DNA from: Aliikangiella marina
GTDB taxonomy: Bacteria > Pseudomonadota > Gammaproteobacteria > Enterobacterales > Kangiellaceae
NCBI RefSeq assembly: GCF_007004765.1
Contig: NZ_VIKR01000004.1
Coordinates: forward strand, 372,001 to 436,000
DNA: 64,000 nucleotides
Direction of reading: 5' to 3'
The notes below the pieces were generated by a model. The model had not been told where the DNA came from. It ran no database searches and saw only the letters and a list, made by a program, of their open reading frames with translations. A program made the translations under genes and the position numbers. Shown in pieces: positions 4,931-57,385 of the stretch (its first letter is position 1; the number at the start of each line of letters is the position of its first letter).

Positions 4931-7003
4931 ATGACCGCAAAAATAAAAACAATCCATTTACTTTTGCTCGAGCCCTCTTCAAATCAGGCTGAGGTCATTA
5001 TTAATTCGCTACGAAATCGCGGCTTTGCCGTTCGTGCGACCCAGGTTCTCACCACTGAAGAGTTGTCGACGGCGCTGGAGAAAGGCGTTTCTGACTTACT
5101 TATCGCAGATCTCGAACATCAAGAGCTCTCTGCAAAACAAGCGATAGAACAGATCGACTCATTTGGCAGAGACATTCCCTGTATTGTGATGATGAATGAG
5201 CATTCAGATGACATTTTGATTGAATGTATGCGCTATGGCGCTGTTGATGGGGTAACCAAAGCTAACCTCGACTTGCTTTGCCTAAAAGTAGAAAGAGAGC
5301 TCGCCAGTTTAGAAACTCGCCGCGGAAAGACTCAATCAGACTTACAATTAAAAGCAACTGAAAAACGTTGCACCTTGCTACTTGATAATTCACAAGATGC
5401 AATCGCCTATGTTCACGATGGCATGCATGTCTATGCCAATAATGCTTACCTAGAATTATTCGAGTACAGTGACCACGACGAACTCCTTTGTGTTCCAGCT
5501 TTGGACATGATTGCTAAAGAAAGCCAAGACGAGTTTCGTCAATATTTAAAATCGATATCGGCGACAAGTGACCAACAAAACTTCAGCTTCACCGGCACAA
5601 AATCAGACCTCAGTCATTTTGAAGCGATTATGACGCTTTCTACAGCGAACTATGATGACGAAGTTTGTACTCAATTATTAATCCGTCCGGCCGCAGACAA
5701 TGCCGAACTAGAAGAGAAGTTAAAAGAGCTAAGCGCGCAAGATACGCTTACCGATTTATATAATAAAAATTACTTTACCGATCAATTACAACACGCTATT
5801 GAATCGGCTAACGACCAAGCAGAAACTTATAGCGTGCTCTACATTACCTACGACCAACATGAGCAAATATTAGGCGAATATGGTATTGCGGGTGCTGATC
5901 AAATTACTGTTGATTGTTCAAAATGGTTGTCAGAGCAAGTAAAAGAAGAATTCTTGCTTGCGCGAATTGGTGATCACTCTTTCAGTATGTTATTACCAAA
6001 CTCAGCCGGGATTAAATCAAGAGACATGGCGCAAGAACTTTGTGAAAAAGTCAGCAGCCACTTGTTCGATATTGAGGGTCACACAATAAAAATTACTTTC
6101 AGTATCGGTATTTGTCCAGTCGGTGATAGCAGTAGCGACCCCGCACAAATACTATCTGATGCAATAAGTGCCTCAGCGAGAGTCGACAACGGTAACGGCT
6201 TTAAAGTATTTAACAAAGCAGTCCGAGCGGCTGGCAGTGAACAAGATGTGCAAATGCTCGATAAAGTCCAAGAGGCTATTGAGTCTGGCAGAATTCAGTT
6301 GATGTACCAGCCGATCGTCAAACTCCATGGCGAAGAAAAGCTACTTTATCAAGTGCTATTAAGACTCAGTGATGAGAAAGGCAATATGCTCGAATCATCC
6401 AAGGTTTTTCCGGTCGCTAAAGCAGCAGGATTGGGAGAAAAACTTGACCGCTGGATAATCAAACAGTCTCTGAAATCTATACTGACTCAAAAAGTTGATA
6501 AAAAAACGCAACTATTTGTCAATCTTAGCTCCGTTTCATTGATCGACAAAAATATCGTGAATTTTATCGAAAAAACTATCACTGCTAGTGGACTCCCCAA
6601 AGAAAGTATCGTCTTTCAAATTGAAGAAGGTGACGCAGTCAATCATCTTAAGAGAGTCATTGCGTTATGTGCAGAACTTCGCTCGAAAGGCTTTGCTTTG
6701 TGCTTATCTAATTTCGGCGCACAACCCGACCAAAAAACCTTAGTCGACCAACTCGATGTTAATTTTGTGAAAGTCGCCGATGAAAAAGTGAAGTCGTTGC
6801 ATACCGACAGTGAATCAGCAGAATTTGTCCAAGAATTATTAAACGAAATCCATAATCGAGACAAACACAGCATTATTCCGAAAGTAGAAGAAGCAGCAAT
6901 GTTAGCAGCCCTGTGGCCACTGAATGTGAAGTATATTCAAGGTTACTATTTGCAACGCCCAAGTCTTAAAATGGATTATGACTTCGCGTCTGGTGGATTC
7001 TGA
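4931..7003 (+). CDS. fimX: FimX-like REC-PAS-GGDEF-EAL protein with degenerate catalytic motifs
   Basis: At 690 residues this matches the length and order of Pseudomonas FimX, a c-di-GMP receptor controlling type IV pilus assembly. Domains: a receiver-like region (about 5-125), PAS (about 145-260), GGDEF (about 270-420) and EAL (about 440-685). The GGDEF signature is replaced by RIGDHSF, and the EAL motif by YQVLLRL. The second EAL position is therefore lost and neither cyclase nor phosphodiesterase activity is expected. FimX is known to bind c-di-GMP through such an inactive EAL domain. It is a single gene with its own leader. A role in twitching motility is inferred from family; no pilus genes lie in the window. 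Confidence 0.8.
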   Translation: MTAKIKTIHLLLLEPSSNQAEVIINSLRNRGFAVRATQVLTTEELSTALEKGVSDLLIADLEHQELSAKQAIEQIDSFGRDIPCIVMMNEHSDDILIECMRYGAVDGVTKANLDLLCLKVERELASLETRRGKTQSDLQLKATEKRCTLLLDNSQDAIAYVHDGMHVYANNAYLELFEYSDHDELLCVPALDMIAKESQDEFRQYLKSISATSDQQNFSFTGTKSDLSHFEAIMTLSTANYDDEVCTQLLIRPAADNAELEEKLKELSAQDTLTDLYNKNYFTDQLQHAIESANDQAETYSVLYITYDQHEQILGEYGIAGADQITVDCSKWLSEQVKEEFLLARIGDHSFSMLLPNSAGIKSRDMAQELCEKVSSHLFDIEGHTIKITFSIGICPVGDSSSDPAQILSDAISASARVDNGNGFKVFNKAVRAAGSEQDVQMLDKVQEAIESGRIQLMYQPIVKLHGEEKLLYQVLLRLSDEKGNMLESSKVFPVAKAAGLGEKLDRWIIKQSLKSILTQKVDKKTQLFVNLSSVSLIDKNIVNFIEKTITASGLPKESIVFQIEEGDAVNHLKRVIALCAELRSKGFALCLSNFGAQPDQKTLVDQLDVNFVKVADEKVKSLHTDSESAEFVQELLNEIHNRDKHSIIPKVEEAAMLAALWPLNVKYIQGYYLQRPSLKMDYDFASGGF

Positions 7004-24958: not shown

Positions 24959-26722
24959 CTACTTTTTTTGCTGGGTCACAATATCAAGCTCAACGGTTTC
25001 TTCTAGCTCTTCATCGTGTAATGTCTCATTGACCTTGGTTACTGTCACTTGCGACACTTGGCTAGCCGAATTTTTTTGTGGCGAATCAAAACGGTTTTCT
25101 AAAAATTTCGCTAACTGATTAAACGCCGCAAATAGCTGCCCTACTTCATCGTTTCGCTCGCTAATAAGTCGTGCATCAACCCGCCCCATCGACATCTTGT
25201 TAAGCGCTTGAGTAATTCGTTGAAAATCCTTAGAGGTTCTTCTCGCCAGCTCTAAAGTCACTGCAAAAACGATGATCAAAGTTATCATCATAACCATTAA
25301 CATGGTTACCAAGGTTGTTTTAGAAGCCGCATACATTGAGTCGGCACTAAAAGAGACATAGAGTCTACCTAAATTTTTGTCACCAAATAGTATCGGGGTC
25401 GCAATATCAAATAAAACTTCATCTTCGGCGATAATTCGTTTGTAGATGATGATGTTATCTTGGGACTGCATCAATTCGCGTTCTTCGGGCGCTTGGAAAG
25501 TTTGATTAACCGAATCGATTTCTGTTGAAGCAAGAATCAAATCATTATTATCCATCACGAAAACCGCTTTTAATTGTTCATTATTGCTGGTTTCGCTCAC
25601 GAGCGCGTTAAGCCCAATCGTATCATCTAACAGTATTGGTTCTGAGCTTTCATAAGCAAGCATTCGAGCGATTGAGCGACCGTAATCAAAGGTAATTCCA
25701 GAGAGGGCTCGATACTGCATGTAATAAACAGTCGCCAAACCGATACACATAGATACAAAAACGATCCCAGCCATCATCGCGGTCCAGCGAAGCCGGAGAG
25801 AAACAAACTGTTTCTTAGGGGTTAGCTTTTTGTTACCTAGTTTGTTTTGGATACCCCGTAAATCGGCGGTTAATTTAGCGGCGTTGTCGAATCGTTTGTG
25901 TGGTTGTTTTTGTAAGAGTTTACGCACCAGGTCTTGTAAATCATCTTTGACGACTTCTTCTTGCACTATCAACTGTGGTGGTTTGGACTTAATAATTTGC
26001 TTGAATAATTCACCGAGATCATCATTAACAAACGGCGCCATGCCCATAAGCATTCTAAATATCAAGACACCAAAAGAATACAAATCCGACCGGCTATCAA
26101 CGGGTTGTCCTAACACTTGTTCTGGCGCCATATATTCAGGGGTACCCAAAACTTTGTCAGAGCGTTTCCCAGCCTTACCCAATGTCTCATCCAGTTGAGC
26201 AATACCAAAATCGGTTAATTTAACCGTCTTTTTATCTTTTAAAACAACAATGTTTCCGGGTTTTATGTCACGATGAACGACGCCTTGTTTATGCGCATAG
26301 CTCAAGGCTCGACTGAGCTGTATCGCCATGGCTAGCACGGTTTTTAAATTAATCTTTCCTTGAGTCGACAAAATCTGTTCGAGCGTAGCACCTTCCAATA
26401 GTTCCATACCGATATAAGGTTTGTTGTCTGCGACGCCAACATCAAAAATCGTTACAATCCCTGGGTGGGTGAGTGCAGCGGCTAGACGCGCCTCTTTCAG
26501 AAAAGCATCTCGATAATCTTTATCTCGGGCCAATTCTTCACGCAACACTTTGATGGCCAAAAACCGATCAAGTTGCGGATCGTACGCTTTATAGACGAAT
26601 GCTGTGGCACCGCGACCTACTTCATTAAGAATTCGATAGCGTCCCAATGTCTTGGGCGGCGCTTCTCGTCGCGGAAATTCGCCTTCGTAGACAGTATTGC
26701 GCTGATTAGGAAGGTCAGACAT
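24959..26722 (-). CDS. Transmembrane Ser/Thr protein kinase with HAMP domain
   Basis: The Hanks-type kinase domain occupies about residues 28-285. It has the glycine loop VGRGATAFVYKA, the ATP lysine in LAIKVLREEL, catalytic HRDIKPGN and metal-binding DFG (TDFGIAQL). A membrane helix (about 325-348), an extracytoplasmic sensor region of about 130 residues, a second helix (about 475-498) and a HAMP-like stretch (DFQRITQALNKMSMGRVDA) follow. The C-terminus is acidic. I use ATG 26722 (587 residues), 4 bp after the FHA gene; an upstream ATG at 26755 overlaps that gene. Kinase, FHA reader and PP2C phosphatase form one operon. Confidence 0.88.
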   Translation of the reverse strand: MSDLPNQRNTVYEGEFPRREAPPKTLGRYRILNEVGRGATAFVYKAYDPQLDRFLAIKVLREELARDKDYRDAFLKEARLAAALTHPGIVTIFDVGVADNKPYIGMELLEGATLEQILSTQGKINLKTVLAMAIQLSRALSYAHKQGVVHRDIKPGNIVVLKDKKTVKLTDFGIAQLDETLGKAGKRSDKVLGTPEYMAPEQVLGQPVDSRSDLYSFGVLIFRMLMGMAPFVNDDLGELFKQIIKSKPPQLIVQEEVVKDDLQDLVRKLLQKQPHKRFDNAAKLTADLRGIQNKLGNKKLTPKKQFVSLRLRWTAMMAGIVFVSMCIGLATVYYMQYRALSGITFDYGRSIARMLAYESSEPILLDDTIGLNALVSETSNNEQLKAVFVMDNNDLILASTEIDSVNQTFQAPEERELMQSQDNIIIYKRIIAEDEVLFDIATPILFGDKNLGRLYVSFSADSMYAASKTTLVTMLMVMMITLIIVFAVTLELARRTSKDFQRITQALNKMSMGRVDARLISERNDEVGQLFAAFNQLAKFLENRFDSPQKNSASQVSQVTVTKVNETLHDEELEETVELDIVTQQKK

Positions 26723-26726
26723 AAGC

Positions 26727-27239
26727 TTAGAGGATAAAGTAGAACAAACCTGCAAATGCGGCTACGAGGCCAAGCGCCATTAAAATAAGCCCCAGACCAC
26801 CAGAGCTTTTCCCCGTCGGAACGGGCTCATCGACCATGGTAAAGACAAACTCCGCACCGGCAAACGCAATTCTGTCACCGCTAGTGATGAATTTCTCGGA
26901 AACTTTCTCGCCATTAACAAATGTTCCATTTGAAGACAACAGATTAAGGACTTTCCAATCGTCTCCTTGCTTAATAATCTGCGCATGCATAGATGACACG
27001 CTCGCGTCCTCCAACACGATATCCGCAGTCGGTCGTCGACCAACTTCAAGCTTGTCTTTCATTAAAATAATTTGGATGCCCGCGACATTCTCACTCACAC
27101 CAATCAGAGCAGGCGTTGTTGCCGTTCCCGATTGCGCATTCGCGATTTTATCGGCGATCATCTTGTTAATATCGTTCTTCTCAAATACTTGAGTACCTTG
27201 AGGCCCCATCGAAGGATTATTGTTATCTTTATCGGTCAT
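26727..27239 (-). CDS. FHA domain protein with C-terminal membrane anchor
   Basis: The 170-residue protein has a disordered N-terminus, an FHA phosphothreonine-binding domain (about 60-140) and a C-terminal membrane helix (GLILMALGLVAAFAGLFYFIL). The FHA core GRRPTADIVLEDASVSSMHAQI and LSSNGTFVNGEKV has the binding Arg, Ser and Asn of the family, so phosphothreonine reading is expected. The N-terminal region includes Thr in a GTQVF context, a possible substrate of the neighbouring kinase. It sits between the phosphatase and kinase genes with gaps of 10 and 4 bp. The likely job is to recruit phosphorylated partners to the membrane. Confidence 0.87.
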   Translation of the reverse strand: MTDKDNNNPSMGPQGTQVFEKNDINKMIADKIANAQSGTATTPALIGVSENVAGIQIILMKDKLEVGRRPTADIVLEDASVSSMHAQIIKQGDDWKVLNLLSSNGTFVNGEKVSEKFITSGDRIAFAGAEFVFTMVDEPVPTGKSSGGLGLILMALGLVAAFAGLFYFIL

Positions 27240-27249
27240 CTAAGCTCTC

Positions 27250-28032
27250 TTAGTTGGTGCTCTTAACAAATACTGCTTTTAACTTTTGCCAAAATGAAGG
27301 CACTTTTTGCACGGGTGAATCAACAAGTACAATACTTATGTTATCTCTACCGCCAAGATTTTTGGCGATATCTGTCAGTTTAGCAAGTTTTTCCTGACTA
27401 CTTATCTCAAGCTGCAGTATATCCACCATGGCTGCCTCACTTACATCATCACTCAACCCATCGCTGCACAATAGAATTTGTTGGCCCGCTTGCCAACTAC
27501 CGAAGTAATTGTCAACCAAGACATTCTCTATCTCCACAGACCCTAAACATTGGGTGATCATATGCCGTTGCGGGTGATTTTTCGCGTCCTCAGCACTGAT
27601 TAAACCAGATTTAAGCAACCTGACCATCAATGAGTGGTCCTCACTCAGCTGGGTCAGTTGCTGCTTATTTTTGTCCCAAAGGTAGGCCCGGCTATCACCG
27701 ACCCAAGAAACTTGATAGTTGACATTATTGCTGGTGAGCGCAACCACTGTCGTCCCCATACCAAACTGACCATTTCCCGACTCCGCGGCCTCAACAATTT
27801 TTTGATGAGCCGCCTCAATTGCCTTGGGCAATTGACCCGATTTCGAGAATTCGTTGGATATGGTCTCTGCTGCGAGCTGACTAGCAACTTCACCACAGGC
27901 GTGACCGCCCATACCGTCAGCGACCAGCCAGAGACGATCATCACAGTACAAGGTATCTTCGTTCAATTCTCTGACACAACCGACATCGGTGATATGTGCA
28001 TATTGGATTTTATAGTCTTCGGTAATTTCCAT
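27250..28032 (-). CDS. PP2C-type protein phosphatase
   Basis: A 260-residue metal-dependent Ser/Thr phosphatase that should reverse the kinase encoded two genes downstream. PP2C motifs are complete: RELNEDTLY, VADGMGGHACGE, GTTVVAL, SWVGDSRAYL, LCSDGLSDDV and GGRDNISIVLV, with the Asp residues that hold Mn/Mg. It is the first gene of the phosphatase-FHA-kinase operon. Such triplets also occur in type VI secretion clusters (PppA-Fha-PpkA), but no T6SS genes are present here. Its leader shares the 160-bp gap with the divergent ssrA gene. Confidence 0.93.
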   Translation of the reverse strand: MEITEDYKIQYAHITDVGCVRELNEDTLYCDDRLWLVADGMGGHACGEVASQLAAETISNEFSKSGQLPKAIEAAHQKIVEAAESGNGQFGMGTTVVALTSNNVNYQVSWVGDSRAYLWDKNKQQLTQLSEDHSLMVRLLKSGLISAEDAKNHPQRHMITQCLGSVEIENVLVDNYFGSWQAGQQILLCSDGLSDDVSEAAMVDILQLEISSQEKLAKLTDIAKNLGGRDNISIVLVDSPVQKVPSFWQKLKAVFVKSTN

Positions 28033-28192: not shown

Positions 28193-28541
28193 GGGGGCGA
28201 CCTGGCTTCGACGGGGATTACAAAACTCAAGGTGCATGCCGAGGTGTCAGCGAACCTCGTACCCACTAGCTGAAAACTATAGTTGCAAACGACGACAACT
28301 ACGCTTTAGCCGCTTAATGGCTAACTGTTGCTTCTGAGCGTCACCGGTAGGGAGTTCAACAGTCATATACGGAGACTCGCGTGTAAGGGTGTTTACCCCC
28401 CAAGCGTTAAACTTTAAGTAAACTCGCCCTAAGCCTCCTGTCAGTCGGAAAAGCTTTGGGTTAACTCATAGACTGACTAAGCATGTAGTACCAAGAGCAG
28501 AGGATTTTCGGACGCGGGTTCGATTCCCGCCGCCTCCACCA
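28193..28541 (+). ncRNA. ssrA: tmRNA (SsrA), one-piece
   Basis: The RNA rescues stalled ribosomes by acting first as alanyl-tRNA and then as a template for a degradation tag. The 5' end GGGGGCG pairs with CGCCUCC at the 3' end (28531-28537, one G-U pair), followed by discriminator A and CCA at 28539-28541. The TTCGA T-loop is present (28519-28523). The tag frame starts with GCA at 28285 and reads ANDDNYALAA, with stop TAA at 28315-28317; the ALAA end is the ClpXP signal. Length 349 nt is normal. The 3' end is a known phage integration site, and foreign genes begin just beyond it. Confidence 0.97.
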
Positions 28542-28904: not shown

Positions 28905-29099
28905 ATGGAACAAGCATTAACCGTCAAACAAGTAGCAGAACTTCTGAATGTCAACGAAAGAACTATCTATCGCATGGCAGTATCCGGAAAACTTCCTGGA
29001 TTTAAAGTTGCTGATAGCTGGAGGTTTCTCCCGAACGATATTGAGCAATGGATTGACGAACAAAAAGCTCAAAGTGTAGCCAAGAGTGATAACCAATGA
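28905..29099 (+). CDS. Small HTH (excisionase/MerR-like) DNA-binding protein
   Basis: The 64-residue protein is essentially one winged helix-turn-helix of the excisionase-type family. LTVKQVAELLNVNERTIYRM forms the HTH, GKLPGFKVADSWRF the wing, and IEQWIDEQ the final helix. Its stop overlaps the methyltransferase start (ATGA), so it is translationally coupled to it. Two roles are possible: controller of the R-M genes, or a recombination directionality factor of the prophage given its position near the attachment site. The coupling favours the first. No strong Shine-Dalgarno is visible before its ATG. Confidence 0.8.
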   Translation: MEQALTVKQVAELLNVNERTIYRMAVSGKLPGFKVADSWRFLPNDIEQWIDEQKAQSVAKSDNQ

Positions 29100-31927
29100 A
29101 TCATTTAGAAGTTTTGAGGGACACTTCACCAGCATCTTTAACAGAAGAGTTTCGAAAGAAGGCTACGGGTTGTTATTACACCCATAAATCTATTGCCACT
29201 CAAATGTTTGAGCCTCTGCTTTCAGAAACCGAATTTGTTGAAGCTGGAAGATTAAAAGTTTTTGATCCATTTGCTGGGGACGGACGGTTAGTAATTTGGC
29301 TTATTGAATTCTGCCTTTCCAATAACTTACCAAAAGAGTGGGATGTTTACCTTTTTGATATTAATGAATCAGGTCTAAAGGAGGCAGAAAGAAGTATTAA
29401 ACGACTAGAAGACGAAGGTGTGTCCATAACGTACACAATCAAGTCTGGTGATGCATTTAAATTTGCAAGTATGTATAGAGACAAAGCAGACCTTGTTGTC
29501 ACAAACCCGCCGTGGGAACTTCTTAAGCCTGACTCCAGAGAATTAAAGCAGTTGGATGAAGATTCAAAGAATCTATATATATCCTCAATGAAAGACTACG
29601 ATAATTTTTTGTCTGACAATTATCCAGTTTCGCAACCGAAAAGAAAGTTTGCAGGATGGGGAACAAATCTCTCAAGGGTAGGAGCAGAACTAAGCCATCT
29701 ACTCTTAAGGAATAATGGCTATTGCTGCATCGTTTTACCTGCTTCTTTTTTTGCTGATGACCAATCAGGAAGAATAAGAAAAAAGATCATATCTACCTCT
29801 GATTTAATCGAGTTATCTTACTACCCAGCAGAAGCAAAGTTGTTCGGAAAAGCTGATGTTGCATCTTCATCATTAACCTATAAAAAAAGTGACTCAGCCA
29901 GACGCACAACTAAGCTAACAATATTTGATAAGAACGTAGAGGTAAAGTCATCGGGCGATATTTCTCTTGAAGAAGACAATCAAGATGAGTACATGATACC
30001 TATAACTTTAGGTTCAGAGTCTATAAAAGTTTTACAGAAACTGAAAAGAGACTTCCCAACCTGGGAGGTTCTTGAAAAGGAAAAAATGGAATTATGGGCA
30101 GGCAGAGAGCTTGATGAAACAGGCAGTAAAAATTGGCTATCTAACGAGAAGTCAGGACTACCCTTTGTTAAAGGCAGAATGGTAAATCGTTTCAAGCTAG
30201 ATGACCAAGAAAAACTTTATGCCCAAAAGCCAGAATATTCCCCTCCAGAAAGCATTTCACATCAAAGGATTGCCTGGCGAGATATTTCTCGTCCTAGCCA
30301 GAAAAGGAGAGTCATTGCCACCATAGTCCCAAGAGGAGCCATTACGGGGAATTCATTAGGCGTTACGTTTTATAGAAATAGTGATGAAACTAGCTTGCTA
30401 TCACTACTAGGAATCATCAATTCGCTATGCTTTGAATTTCAACTTCGTTTTTATCTTGCCACGGGACATGTATCTCTTTCAGCAATAAGAAAGGTACACA
30501 TACCATCACAGAAAATCACATCCAAGCTAACAGAGCTTGCAAATTTATGTAAAAGAAAAGTCAACGGTGAAAATGTATCTTCAGAAAAGCTAGAAGCCAT
30601 TGTGGCCCGCCAAGTATACGGACTCAATAGGAAAGAGTTCGAACTAATTATCGATTCTTTCGAAAAAATAACTAAAGAAGAAAAGCAAAAGATTCTATTA
30701 GAGTTTGAAGATACGTCCATGAATAAAGCAGAAATATCTCACTTAATTCCAAATCATCTTAGTTCAAAGTTAAGTGAGCTTGATATGAAAATTGTTCATT
30801 CAGTTCCACCCGGAGGGAACTGGAAAAACATTCCTGAAGATATACCCTCAAAAAGAATTGCTCAAATACGAGAGAGCTATATTCAAGGAAAAGGAAGCCG
30901 CTCGACATATTATGGTAGGTTACGAGCAGAAATGCCATCATATACAATCAACACCTATTTCAACAGGCCTGGAAATGGATGCCACATTCACTACTCTCAA
31001 GATCGTGTTCTTTCACAACGAGAAGCTGCTAGATTACAGTCGTTTCCGGACAGCTTCGAGTTTTCAGGACCTCAAACAGCGGTCAACACTCAAATAGGGA
31101 ATGCAGTCCCCCCTCTTTTATCATTTCAGATTGCAAATCAAATCAAACAAAGTATTGGATCAACGGGCGTTTTTATTGACCTATTCTCTGGCGCAGGAGG
31201 AATGGGCCTTGGATTTAAATGGGCTGGCTGGCAACCACTGTTAGCTAATGACATTGAGTCTCGATTTCTAGACACTTACGCCAAAAATGTTCATGGCAAT
31301 ACCCTGTGTGGAAGCATCTCGGATGATGACTTTTTCACAACTTTAGTTCAGGAGTGTATAAAAATACGAGCCAGGTATCCTTCTACTCCATTTTGGGTTT
31401 TAGGCGGCCCACCTTGCCAAGGGTTTTCAACTGCTGGAAACAAACGCTCTATGGACGACCAGAGAAACTCATTGTTTGTTCATTATAAAAAATTACTAGA
31501 AGAAGTTTCACCAGATGGCTTTGTGTTTGAAAATGTTGCGGGCCTATTGAGCATGGAAAAAGGAAAGGTATTTGAGAGAGTAAAATCTGAATTTAGCAGT
31601 GTAATGACAAACTTAACCGGCTGGGTTTTAAATAGTGAGGACTATGCAATACCGCAGAGAAGAAAGAGAGTCATATTGGTAGGCTCAAAAGATGCTAATT
31701 TTAAGATCTTTCCACCAGCACCAAAAACAAGCAACAATAAAAATGATCTTTTTTCAGATCTAAAAAACTGGATAACGGTTGAGGAATCCATTTCGGATTT
31801 GCCTCCAATTTCTCAAGGCGAGAACGGCTCACATTTGAACTACATATCAGAGCCAAAGAGTGACTATCAGCGACTCATGAGAGGGGAAATATCTCCCGAA
31901 ACCTACCTTTCTTACTTCTCGAACTAA
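29096..31927 (+). CDS. Fused N6-adenine and circularly permuted C5-cytosine DNA methyltransferase
   Basis: The 943-residue modification enzyme joins two methyltransferases. The N-terminal half (1 to about 550) is an m6A enzyme with SAM motif FDPFAGDG (56-63) and catalytic NPPW (137-140). The C-terminal half is an m5C enzyme in permuted order. The motif IX-X region comes first (RVLSQREAARLQSFPDSF, 637-654; QIGNAVPP, 666-673). Then come motif I (FIDLFSGAGG, 693-702), motif IV GGPPCQGFS with catalytic C774, ENV (812-814) and QRRKR (854-858). Alw26I/Eco31I/Esp3I systems are known to put m5C on one strand and m6A on the other of an asymmetric site, and this protein fits that scheme. Base use is A+T-rich with many AGA/ATA codons. 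Target sequence is unproven. Confidence 0.92.
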   Translation: MNHLEVLRDTSPASLTEEFRKKATGCYYTHKSIATQMFEPLLSETEFVEAGRLKVFDPFAGDGRLVIWLIEFCLSNNLPKEWDVYLFDINESGLKEAERSIKRLEDEGVSITYTIKSGDAFKFASMYRDKADLVVTNPPWELLKPDSRELKQLDEDSKNLYISSMKDYDNFLSDNYPVSQPKRKFAGWGTNLSRVGAELSHLLLRNNGYCCIVLPASFFADDQSGRIRKKIISTSDLIELSYYPAEAKLFGKADVASSSLTYKKSDSARRTTKLTIFDKNVEVKSSGDISLEEDNQDEYMIPITLGSESIKVLQKLKRDFPTWEVLEKEKMELWAGRELDETGSKNWLSNEKSGLPFVKGRMVNRFKLDDQEKLYAQKPEYSPPESISHQRIAWRDISRPSQKRRVIATIVPRGAITGNSLGVTFYRNSDETSLLSLLGIINSLCFEFQLRFYLATGHVSLSAIRKVHIPSQKITSKLTELANLCKRKVNGENVSSEKLEAIVARQVYGLNRKEFELIIDSFEKITKEEKQKILLEFEDTSMNKAEISHLIPNHLSSKLSELDMKIVHSVPPGGNWKNIPEDIPSKRIAQIRESYIQGKGSRSTYYGRLRAEMPSYTINTYFNRPGNGCHIHYSQDRVLSQREAARLQSFPDSFEFSGPQTAVNTQIGNAVPPLLSFQIANQIKQSIGSTGVFIDLFSGAGGMGLGFKWAGWQPLLANDIESRFLDTYAKNVHGNTLCGSISDDDFFTTLVQECIKIRARYPSTPFWVLGGPPCQGFSTAGNKRSMDDQRNSLFVHYKKLLEEVSPDGFVFENVAGLLSMEKGKVFERVKSEFSSVMTNLTGWVLNSEDYAIPQRRKRVILVGSKDANFKIFPPAPKTSNNKNDLFSDLKNWITVEESISDLPPISQGENGSHLNYISEPKSDYQRLMRGEISPETYLSYFSN

Positions 31928-32028: not shown

Positions 32029-33678
32029 CTAGCTTACATCCTCAAACTCTTCTCTAACGTAACGATCACTTTCCCACATGTCGTTAATCGATTTACCTAC
32101 GACAGACATAGCCAAATTTAAACGCTCCTTAGCTTTATCAAAAGGCTCTATTTTCTCTATAGGAAAAGATTGGGCCCATTCTCGCAAAGCAAATTCTGAC
32201 CTCCCGCCATCCTCAGAAAAAAGAATACCCTTTACTTGAGCATCTAATTCAAGTATTTCCTGGCTCGAATTATTTAAAATATTAACTGCATCTTCGACTA
32301 GTACGGACACAGCATCAACTTCAACCTCAAATGTATGTCTATTATTTTTCTCTATATAGGTTCTTAGAGCCTCAAACCCAATTCGAATTCGCCGAGCCTT
32401 CTGTTCGCTGGAGTACTTGGTTGTCCTAGGTTCTTCTTCTAACTGATCAAACGCAGTAAAGAAGTCTTCCGCTCTTAGGTTTTCAAATTCGACTTTTCGA
32501 TCGGCATAATGAAGCTCAAGCAAGTATACAAGAAATGCATATTTCTCACTCTCAAACATCGAGCATAATATTTTCATCGCATTTCTTTGATTATCCCTAA
32601 GCATTTTAGATAATCTGAGTGCCTTTTCGTCACTATTCACACTTAGTTTACGTAGATCCCACAAAGGTTTTGCATACCAAGATGCGACATTGATTCCTTT
32701 CCTTTCACATTCGATTAAGTAATAAACATCCTCCAAAGACATTCTATTATTTTTTGCAGAATTAGCAGCCTTACTTAAAAGTTTAAATTCAGGACGATGG
32801 CAAAATCCGAGCGATAATGGACCAATATGGTCGGCTGTAGGAGGACCTTCTCCCCCATCTGCATTTGCTTCATTTCTAAGTACTGTTTTAACTAGCCCCA
32901 TTAAGCGATCTGCAGCGATCCAATCACCTTCAGACCAAAATTCAAAGACCCGCCTATCCGTAGTATAGCTCCGCAAGTTGGCAGCATGCCTTCCAGTATC
33001 AGCCTTCCCCCTGCAACATCTATTAAATGAATGAAACCCATCAAATCTGTCCGGGGCATTCGACATCACGCCTGGACTCAAAATAGAAGGTTCATTAGGG
33101 ATGTATTCATCATCAAGCCAGCTAAATATTTCGTCTATATTATCTCCAATCTCAGGGACAACAGAATCCTTTGTAGCAAACAGCTTTTTAAAAGATGATA
33201 GAAACTTTTCCGGCAATAAATCATATGCCCGTTGAACTACATCATGGATTGGCTCCATTGTAGAAATTTCAAAGTCTTCACCCAGATGCTTTTTAAATCG
33301 CTTGACAAGGTTTGCCTGTGGATAAACATAAGCAATTTTCATAATCTCTCCGCACCTTTTGCAAGGTTTCTCCCCTGTGGGGTGAATCTGCTTTGCTGTT
33401 TTGCTTATCCATTGATCCTTCGTAGTATCAATTCCAAGGCTCTCGGCTTTGGCTTTCCACCAGTCCCTCCTTTTATTGTGCGTAAATTGATATTGACCAC
33501 TTGAACGATTTGATGGTGCCTCCCATTGAATTTTCCCATCATTTTTTATCGCGTCTGGCATTCCCTTGTAAGTTGGATGGGTTACTATCGCCTTCATGTA
33601 GGCAACAAACTCACTCGCCCAAGATTGGCCTTTGCTTCCATACTGGGAAGGGTCATCAATGATTTCACTGTGTTCCAT
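32029..33678 (-). CDS. HNH-type type IIS restriction endonuclease, Alw26I/Eco31I/Esp3I-like
   Basis: The 549-residue protein has an HNH-like active site: DHIGPLSLGF with D283-H284, followed by NSAKNNR (306-312). This resembles the single HNH site described for Eco31I, where a D-H pair and a downstream Asn are essential. A CKRCG zinc-ribbon-like element (about 107) and a second Cys-pair region (FNRCCRGK) flank it. Size agrees with that family. It is convergent with the dual methyltransferase, and its own promoter carries a palindrome. Members cut GTCTC-type sites outside the recognition sequence; here both site and cut position are inferred from family only. Confidence 0.8.
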   Translation of the reverse strand: MEHSEIIDDPSQYGSKGQSWASEFVAYMKAIVTHPTYKGMPDAIKNDGKIQWEAPSNRSSGQYQFTHNKRRDWWKAKAESLGIDTTKDQWISKTAKQIHPTGEKPCKRCGEIMKIAYVYPQANLVKRFKKHLGEDFEISTMEPIHDVVQRAYDLLPEKFLSSFKKLFATKDSVVPEIGDNIDEIFSWLDDEYIPNEPSILSPGVMSNAPDRFDGFHSFNRCCRGKADTGRHAANLRSYTTDRRVFEFWSEGDWIAADRLMGLVKTVLRNEANADGGEGPPTADHIGPLSLGFCHRPEFKLLSKAANSAKNNRMSLEDVYYLIECERKGINVASWYAKPLWDLRKLSVNSDEKALRLSKMLRDNQRNAMKILCSMFESEKYAFLVYLLELHYADRKVEFENLRAEDFFTAFDQLEEEPRTTKYSSEQKARRIRIGFEALRTYIEKNNRHTFEVEVDAVSVLVEDAVNILNNSSQEILELDAQVKGILFSEDGGRSEFALREWAQSFPIEKIEPFDKAKERLNLAMSVVGKSINDMWESDRYVREEFEDVS

Positions 33679-55785: not shown

Positions 55786-56123
55786 GCACCCGCTGCTTTA
55801 TTGCGATGACTAAAGACAATACCAATTTCCAATCAATTTATTGCCATCACGATGGCTATGATTCAGTTAATGGTGTTGGACCAACGCTGCGGCAATATCA
55901 CAATAGTGAATCCCACGCCGAAAGCCTGATTGCGCTGGGCGACATTTCCTACGTGCAGGGAGCAACAGTCTGTGCTTACCACCGTGATCGTGGCGATGCC
56001 TGGGAGCAAACCCAGCCAAGAACTACCCGAAGCGAATCAGAGCTATTTGCACTGGCCAAAGCCTGTGATGCCCAATACCTGTACCTTTTTAAACAAAGCG
56101 AATGGCACACATTTAAGCTTTAA
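55782..56123 (+). CDS. Small plus-strand phage protein, unknown function
   Basis: The 113-residue protein is unrecognised. It is rich in His, Tyr and Cys (CFIAMTKDNTNFQSIYCHHDGYDSVNGVG), with a compact beta-like core and a LFALAKACDAQYLYLF end. It is coupled to the DUF3489-like gene by a 4-bp overlap and its stop overlaps the convergent methyltransferase stop by 4 bp. A small accessory or defence-type role is possible but nothing shows it. Confidence 0.65.
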   Translation: MSTRCFIAMTKDNTNFQSIYCHHDGYDSVNGVGPTLRQYHNSESHAESLIALGDISYVQGATVCAYHRDRGDAWEQTQPRTTRSESELFALAKACDAQYLYLFKQSEWHTFKL

Positions 56124-57385
56124 TTCGCAACTGCTTCTGTTTGCATTGATAGGGCAACCTCATCAAAGGAAAGCTCATCACTTTCACGGATAGCCTGCTC
56201 GCCCGAGTAGTCCTGCCAGCGCCTGACAATGACATCCACATACTTAGGGTCCAATTCGATCAAGCGTGCTGCACGACCTGTTTTTTCACAAGCAATCAAT
56301 GTGCTTCCAGATCCACCAAAAAGATCGAGCACAATGTCTCGGCTCTTACTGGAATTGCGAAGCGCACGCTCAACCAACTCCACCGGTTTCATTGTTGGGT
56401 GCAAATCATTTTTAACGGGTTTGTTAAAAAACCAAACGTCTCCCTGATCACGAGCCCCACACCAAAAGTGGTCGTTGCCTTCGCGCCAACCATACAAAAT
56501 CGGTTCATACTGACGCTGATAATCGGATCGACCTAGAGTGAAAGTATTTTTTGCCCATACGATAAATGTTGACCACTTGCCGCCAGCATCTCGAAACGCT
56601 TTTTGAAGCGTGTCTAATTCACTGGATGACATGGCGATGTAGCACGCTCCTTTAGTCACACTCAAAAGATTCGTGAGCGCATCTTTAAGAAACTGATAAA
56701 AATCATCACCCAGATTGTCATTCATAATGCGCCGATCTTTACCGCGCATTTTGTCTTTAGCGTTGTTGCCGTAATCAACGTTATAAGGTGGATCGGTGAA
56801 AGCCATATCGGCAAGCTCACCGCTCATTAATTTTTCTAAATCCTGTTTGCTAGTCGAATCCCCACATAACAATCGATGGTTACCCAAAACCCACACATCA
56901 CCATGTCGGCTTACAGGCTCATCTTCCACCTCGGGAATTTCATCCTCATCACTTTCACCAGACTGTTCGTTGTTACCCAAAAGCTCATCCAGCTCCTCGT
57001 CAGAGAAGCCGATGAGATCAAGGTCAAAACCCAGATCGCCGAGTTCTTCAAGTTCTAGCTTGAGAAGCTCATCATTCCATCCAGCGTTTTCAGCAATCTT
57101 GTTATCTGCGATCACCAATGCGCGACGTTGTGCTTCGGTCAAGTGATGTAAAACGATCACCGGAACCGTGTCTAAACCAAGTTGCTGAGCCGCCATCAAG
57201 CGACCATGGCCTGCGATAATGACGTTGTCATCACCGACCAAAATCGGATTCACAAAGCCAAATTCTGCTATCGAACCGGCTATTTGCGATACCTGTGTAT
57301 CGTCATGCGTCCTCGCATTTTTGGCATAGGGAATGAGTCGTTGAAGCGACCAGTGCTCCACCGATTCGACAGTGTTAAGTTGCAT
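56120..57385 (-). CDS. ParB-like domain fused to a DNA methyltransferase
   Basis: The 421-residue protein has an N-terminal ParB/Srx-like domain (about 1-120, with NPILVGDDNVIIAGHGRLMAAQQLG), an acidic linker (about 125-165) and a C-terminal beta-class N4/N6 methyltransferase. There, the catalytic motif DPPYNV comes before the SAM motif DLFGGSGSTL. The FWCGARDQGDVWFF region carries target contacts. ParB-methyltransferase fusions are common in phages and may protect phage DNA from restriction. Target sequence and base are unknown. It stands apart from neighbours, with convergent plus-strand genes on its left. Confidence 0.92.
   Translation of the reverse strand: MQLNTVESVEHWSLQRLIPYAKNARTHDDTQVSQIAGSIAEFGFVNPILVGDDNVIIAGHGRLMAAQQLGLDTVPVIVLHHLTEAQRRALVIADNKIAENAGWNDELLKLELEELGDLGFDLDLIGFSDEELDELLGNNEQSGESDEDEIPEVEDEPVSRHGDVWVLGNHRLLCGDSTSKQDLEKLMSGELADMAFTDPPYNVDYGNNAKDKMRGKDRRIMNDNLGDDFYQFLKDALTNLLSVTKGACYIAMSSSELDTLQKAFRDAGGKWSTFIVWAKNTFTLGRSDYQRQYEPILYGWREGNDHFWCGARDQGDVWFFNKPVKNDLHPTMKPVELVERALRNSSKSRDIVLDLFGGSGSTLIACEKTGRAARLIELDPKYVDVIVRRWQDYSGEQAIRESDELSFDEVALSMQTEAVAN

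Follow-up and report, generated by a model that had tools for sequence, protein, structure and literature searches.

A fused m6A and predicted circularly permuted m5C methyltransferase adjoins an endonuclease of a type IIS family at the end of an apparent prophage in Aliikangiella marina

The window (the whole stretch of DNA analyzed here, 64,000 nucleotides of an Aliikangiella marina contig) carries, next to a tmRNA gene, a pair of convergent genes, 101 bases apart, that encode a fused DNA methyltransferase (P0001) and a restriction endonuclease (Table 1). A phage-like region starts after the tmRNA gene, as in prophages integrated at such a gene, and the two restriction-modification genes are followed on their right by genes for a phage lysozyme, a tail sheath, a tape-measure protein, other tail proteins, a capsid, a portal and a terminase. 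On the other side of the tmRNA gene lies a host signaling cluster, in which the ORF at 26727-27239, between the kinase and the PP2C phosphatase genes, looks by eye like an FHA protein.

Table 1. Features in the window and to its right (positions are those of the window; L049 denotes the stretch of the same contig to the right of the window)
Feature	Position	Strand	Profile or source	Remarks
Serine/threonine kinase with HAMP domain and PP2C phosphatase	24959-28032	-		Host signaling cluster by the integration site
tmRNA gene	28193-28541	+		Encodes tag ANDDNYALAA; borders the restriction-modification genes on their left
Fused modification methyltransferase P0001	29096..31927	+	TIGR02987, PF00145	943 aa, intact ORF
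m6A (gamma-class) domain with its own target-recognition region	29159..30709	+	TIGR02987	Residues 22-538
m5C domain, first piece: segment following the variable region, motifs IX-X	30752..31114	+	PF00145 183-323	Residues 553-673
m5C domain, second piece: motifs I-VIII (C774), start of the variable region	31172..31924	+	PF00145 3-203	Residues 693-943
Type IIS restriction endonuclease, Alw26I/Eco31I/Esp3I family	32029..33678	-	TIGR02986, PF09665	549 aa
ParB N-terminal domain fused to an N6/N4 methylase	56120-57385	-		Second DNA methyltransferase, in the phage genes
AAA ATPase and McrC-like pair	L049:7516-10678	+	PF07728, PF10117	Beyond the phage genes, shortly past the right end of the window
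Large serine recombinase	L049:11527-12876	+	PF00239, PF07508	Candidate prophage integrase; right of the window
Apparent second defense cluster: RtcR-like CARF-AAA-HTH regulator, DrmC-like, MkoA-like helicase	L049:13452-19929	-	PADLOC	

The methyltransferase gene begins with an ATG, runs for 943 codons without an internal stop and is preceded by an in-frame TAA two codons 5' of the start. A motif script applied to its product, with motif names following convention, placed the m6A motifs first (FDPFAGDG at residues 56-63 and TNPPWE at 136-141, with N137), followed by GGNWKNIP at 573-580 and by the m5C motifs in the order IX-X (REAARLQSFPD, 642-652, and QIGNAVPP, 666-673), I (FIDLFSGAGGMGLGF, 693-707), IV (GGPPCQGFS, 770-778, with C774), VI (ENV, 812-814) and VIII (QRRKR, 854-858). 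The motif order and all of the residue numbers that the first-pass annotation had assigned to this ORF are thus confirmed.

TIGR02987, the profile of the Alw26I/Eco31I/Esp3I adenine methyltransferases, matches the N-terminal part of P0001 with 484.8 bits, above its curated cut-off of 353.5, which places this part in that family. The m5C profile PF00145 matches twice, first with its positions 183-323 (63.6 bits, E 3.9e-17) and then with its positions 3-203 (146.9 bits, E 1.6e-42), and this swapped order, together with the motif positions, shows a permuted m5C enzyme. In phmmer comparisons with solved structures, the first half of M.HaeIII (1dct) aligns with residues 694-890 and its C-terminal end with residues 637-686, DNMT1 (3pt9) aligns with residues 694-931 and, swapped, with 606-687, and the C-terminal match of further DNMT1 chains starts at residues 551-552. 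The m5C domain is, as judged from its sequence, circularly permuted inside its variable region; the available portion of PMC5944983 locates the permutation of natural permuted m5C enzymes at the same place. Taken together, the TIGR02987 match and the two swapped PF00145 pieces bear out the earlier description of an m6A enzyme joined to a circularly permuted m5C enzyme. Two PADLOC models, among 25 of the 69 matching families, each span the protein in one colinear stretch, PDLC03381 (396 positions) from residue 543 to 938 and PDLC03237 (1036 positions) from residue 18 to 876, so that PADLOC already holds the permuted layout and, by the length of PDLC03237, the fused one as well. We also considered a type IIG enzyme, with methyltransferase and nuclease in one chain, and rejected it: P0001 has 7 Pfam and 9 NCBIfam matches at E up to 1, and none of them is a nuclease family.

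In an AlphaFold2 model of P0001, built from 14 aligned rows (pLDDT 80.6, pTM 0.55), the m6A half matches M.BseCI, CamA and M.TaqI, whereas the arrangement of the two domains is not read from a model with a pTM of 0.55. The best 50 of 1,607 Foldseek matches obtained with this model are all of the m6A kind, so that the assignment of the m5C fold derives from the sequence comparisons above.

The product of the convergent gene matches TIGR02986 with 513.8 bits (curated cut-off 443.85) and PF09665 with 654.2 bits, likewise above the curated cut-off, and the methyltransferase thus has an endonuclease of the Alw26I/Eco31I/Esp3I family at its side; a search of solved structures returned no match for this endonuclease (E up to 0.1). 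The first-pass annotation had made no use of this gene; with it, the fusion is no longer just a curiosity but part of a complete type IIS restriction-modification system. As in M.Esp3I, the m6A and m5C enzymes are contained in a single polypeptide, and we conclude, with a probability of roughly 0.94, that P0001 is the modification enzyme of an Alw26I/Eco31I/Esp3I-family type IIS system with the fused architecture of M.Esp3I and a role on both strands, a reading that claims no particular site. By analogy with characterized relatives, the N-terminal gamma-class domain would place m6A on one strand (the GAGAC strand in the relatives) and the C-terminal domain m5C on the opposite strand (the GTCTC strand) of the same asymmetric site; after replication, every daughter duplex would then retain one mark, and the convergent endonuclease would cut incoming DNA that lacks the modification. 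The earlier proposal of a single protein that protects both strands in a system of this type agrees with the TIGR02987 match and the adjoining family endonuclease, from which such two-strand protection would be expected.

Among the genomes searched, P0001 was found in 1 of the 40 of the family set (E up to 1e-50), TIGR02987 in 1 of the 369 of the class set and TIGR02986 in 1 of the 398 of the phylum set (both E up to 1e-30); the one genome was always the window's own. Phage records with a match to P0001 number 695 and plasmid records 4,362; these matches are mostly single-domain, and 1 and 13 of the records, respectively, cover at least 80% of the query. Viral contigs contributed two related loci, L026 and L027. 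In Marinospirillum minutulum (L004), a single ORF encodes a fused protein of 942 aa that is 78% identical to P0001 over residues 1-942; the endonuclease found there in the same convergent place shares 85% identity with the window's. L005 likewise encodes a fusion in one ORF (956 aa, 57-58% identity over P0001 residues 1-943), and fusions are also found in L006 (954 aa), in L007 and L026, which give values equal to those of L006, and in the plasmid loci L019 and L023, where the fusion in L023 is taken from annotation and tblastn and its m6A part failed the 1e-8 threshold of the locus comparison. Each of these fused relatives has an adjacent convergent endonuclease. In L008-L011, L022, L025 and L027, the two enzymes are split into two overlapping genes, with the m5C part permuted in the same way.

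L022 is an Eco31I-type locus of E. coli with an M1 of 546 aa, an M2 of 396 aa and a convergent R gene; annotated M1 ends at 5123 and M2 starts at 5116, an overlap of 8 bases. Its assignment to Eco31I follows from the ST131 origin, a statement on EC958 in the available part of PMC4659465 and the two protein lengths, rather than from an Eco31I entry. Its proteins are 47% (m6A), 67% (m5C) and 45% (endonuclease) identical to those of the window. M1.Eco31I and M2.Eco31I (BsaI type) share with P0001 the two domains, the permutation and the convergent endonuclease, but they are separate proteins encoded by overlapping genes. DNA at least 99% identical to the L022 type is present in 632 of 5,426 E. 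coli genomes, in 631 of these with a match spanning at least 80% of the query, and the annotation of three stretches of E. coli EC958 contains no Eco31I-type genes. In a further relative, the Roseomonas mucosa plasmid CP099480 (L024), the m6A ORF has 604 aa, the frame of the m5C gene looks broken, and a gene annotated as a very-short-patch repair endonuclease lies upstream; the family endonuclease matched 12 plasmid records, none of them this one.

The first-pass annotation had been unable to say whether the fused and permuted form was already described. It is: the available portions of two papers together show that the layout of P0001 is of the kind already published for M.Esp3I. PMC3874165 describes M.Esp3I, and likewise Esp3I/BsmBI, as a gamma-methyltransferase fused to an m5C methyltransferase. 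PMC5944983 counts M.Alw26I, M2.Eco31I, M.Esp3I, M2.BsaI and M.BssHII among the circularly permuted enzymes, in which motifs IX and X precede motifs I-VIII, and reports 27 such m5C sequences among 20,677 REBASE entries. Compared by these descriptions, M.Esp3I and M.BsmBI resemble P0001 in joining a gamma-class m6A enzyme to an m5C enzyme in one protein, M.Esp3I and M.Alw26I in their circularly permuted m5C domain, and M.BssHII in being a natural circularly permuted m5C enzyme with the same order of IX-X and I-VIII. The endonucleases of the Esp3I and Alw26I systems belong to the same family (TIGR02986) as that of the window. M.Alw26I is presumably a fusion as well, and M.BssHII has a palindromic site and is not known to carry an m6A domain. 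Esp3I/BsmBI-type enzymes are routine in cloning, and the fused, permuted layout, being already described for them, carries little weight as a discovery. M12.MhoVII of Mycoplasma hominis, as presented in the available text of PMC12898733, is similar to P0001 in fusing two methyltransferases that each act on one strand of an asymmetric site; unlike what we propose for P0001, both of its halves make m6A (GATG/CATC), and no m5C activity was found. The available text of that paper on M12.MhoVII nowhere uses the word "circular".

Which site the system reads is a separate matter. The only relative that we reached with a measured site is the Eco31I-type L022, and its identity to the window's endonuclease and m6A domain is too low for this site to be transferred to P0001. 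The Alw26I site has a GTCTC core. According to the available portion of PMC3874165, this core is common to Eco31I and Esp3I. In E. coli EC958, the Eco31I homologue yields GAGm6ACC according to the available portion of PMC4659465, which predicts m5C for the complementary strand. We counted sites in twenty 20-kb stretches, a total of 400 kb of the 5.34-Mb genome, against a maximal-order model, which gave 517 observed and 480.8 expected occurrences of GTCTC, 110 and 110.5 of CGTCTC, 82 and 93.3 of GGTCTC (z -1.17), 169 and 159.4 of AGTCTC, and 156 and 153.9 of TGTCTC. Within the phage genes, at 33.7-64 kb of the window, GTCTC was observed 32 times (33.2 expected), CGTCTC 7 times (5.5 expected) and GGTCTC twice (5.9 expected, or 9.3 under an order-2 model), the last count being too small to use. 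Neither GTCTC nor its six-base versions are avoided in these 400 kb of the genome or 30 kb of phage genes, an absence that fits a recent arrival of the system and does not decide the site.

A fused methyltransferase of the same build could also have come to read a site that does not belong to the GTCTC group; this variant overlaps with our preferred reading, and we consider it unlikely. The endonuclease is just 45% identical to its Eco31I-type counterpart, and in the endonuclease tree the window, L004 and L005 form a clade of their own (100/99); on the other side, the family profiles score far over their cut-offs, and the GTCTC core is common to Eco31I, Esp3I and Alw26I. With P0001 taken as the modification enzyme of an Alw26I/Eco31I/Esp3I-family system, the system is a prophage-borne member that is distant in sequence from the Eco31I type, so that the flanking base could differ.

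With phage genes on one side and the tmRNA gene on the other, the restriction-modification system is apparently carried as cargo at a prophage end. In the 34 kb past the window, we found no convincing right-hand repeat of the tmRNA end; the only candidate is an 11-base match at 95519. The position of the P0001 gene beside phage lysis and tail genes, and the existence of at least one relative without an endonuclease match (the Roseomonas plasmid L024), would also suit an orphan methyltransferase that is encoded by the phage, shields its DNA and plays no role in restriction. We regard this as very improbable in view of the intact convergent family endonuclease here and in the same place in L004-L009, L011, L019, L022, L023, L025 and L026. 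The E. coli locus L022 adjoins McrBC genes, as the window adjoins the McrC-like pair. McrBC requires a purine before the methylated C, as is also stated in the available part of PMC4659465; T precedes the m5C in GTm5CTC, so that the McrBC-like pair and the window's methyltransferase could coexist. One ORF inside the apparent second defense cluster gave no match.

That an assembly or frame error joined two overlapping genes, such as the M1 and M2 genes of the Eco31I type, is scarcely credible: the split genes overlap by 8 bases in L008, L009 and L022 and by 16-29 bases in L010, L011 and L027, and a small error could join them, but in L004, from another organism, and in L005 a single frame bridges the junction, and both flanks of the m6A/m5C junction are colinear in alignment A1 (14 rows, P0001 and 8 loci; L007, the m5C part of L009, L017-L019 and L022-L025 were left out). 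The first-pass annotation had raised the concern of a frame error between residues 550 and 690; such an error is thus improbable, and the single-frame fusion stands.

We then compared fused and split forms on trees of the m5C domain (13 rows), the m6A domain (13 rows) and the endonuclease (11 rows). Left out were L007 and L026 (BLAST values as for L006), L012-L014 (distant, m5C only), L017 (Eco31I-like, broken frames), and L018 and L024 (broken frames); L010 and L027 are absent from the endonuclease tree, with no endonuclease within the stretch covered. On each of these trees, which are small and have several rows on long branches where false joins are possible, fused and split forms interleave and the fused label requires 3 changes, of which well-supported branches force at least 2 (m5C), at least 2 (m6A) and at least 3 (endonuclease). 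Shuffled labels did as well in 60, 67 and 152 of 500 trials, respectively, so that the fused label is not clearly clustered. The pattern suggests joining or separation more than once, on an m5C domain that is permuted in every row, and it is plausible that overlapping split genes were joined through a small frame change.

The first-pass annotation had proposed that the two domains may owe their register in part to the permutation, an idea that these data do not support: the split relatives share the permutation, and recombinant M2.Eco31I (396 aa) is described in the available portion of PMC10810934 as protecting plasmid DNA on its own. The evidence therefore speaks against a special link of the permutation to the fusion. 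One could suppose that the fused enzyme modifies both strands in a single binding event, that fused and split forms differ in how long DNA stays half-modified, and that repeated gene joining was then selected; we hold this to be distinctly unlikely. The fused and split relatives nevertheless offer a natural series for asking whether fusion alters methylation kinetics. Another observation was that L006 groups with L011 and L027 in the m6A tree (82/82) and with the Eco31I clade in the endonuclease tree (100/100), a conflict that could reflect either a swapping of parts or a long-branch effect.
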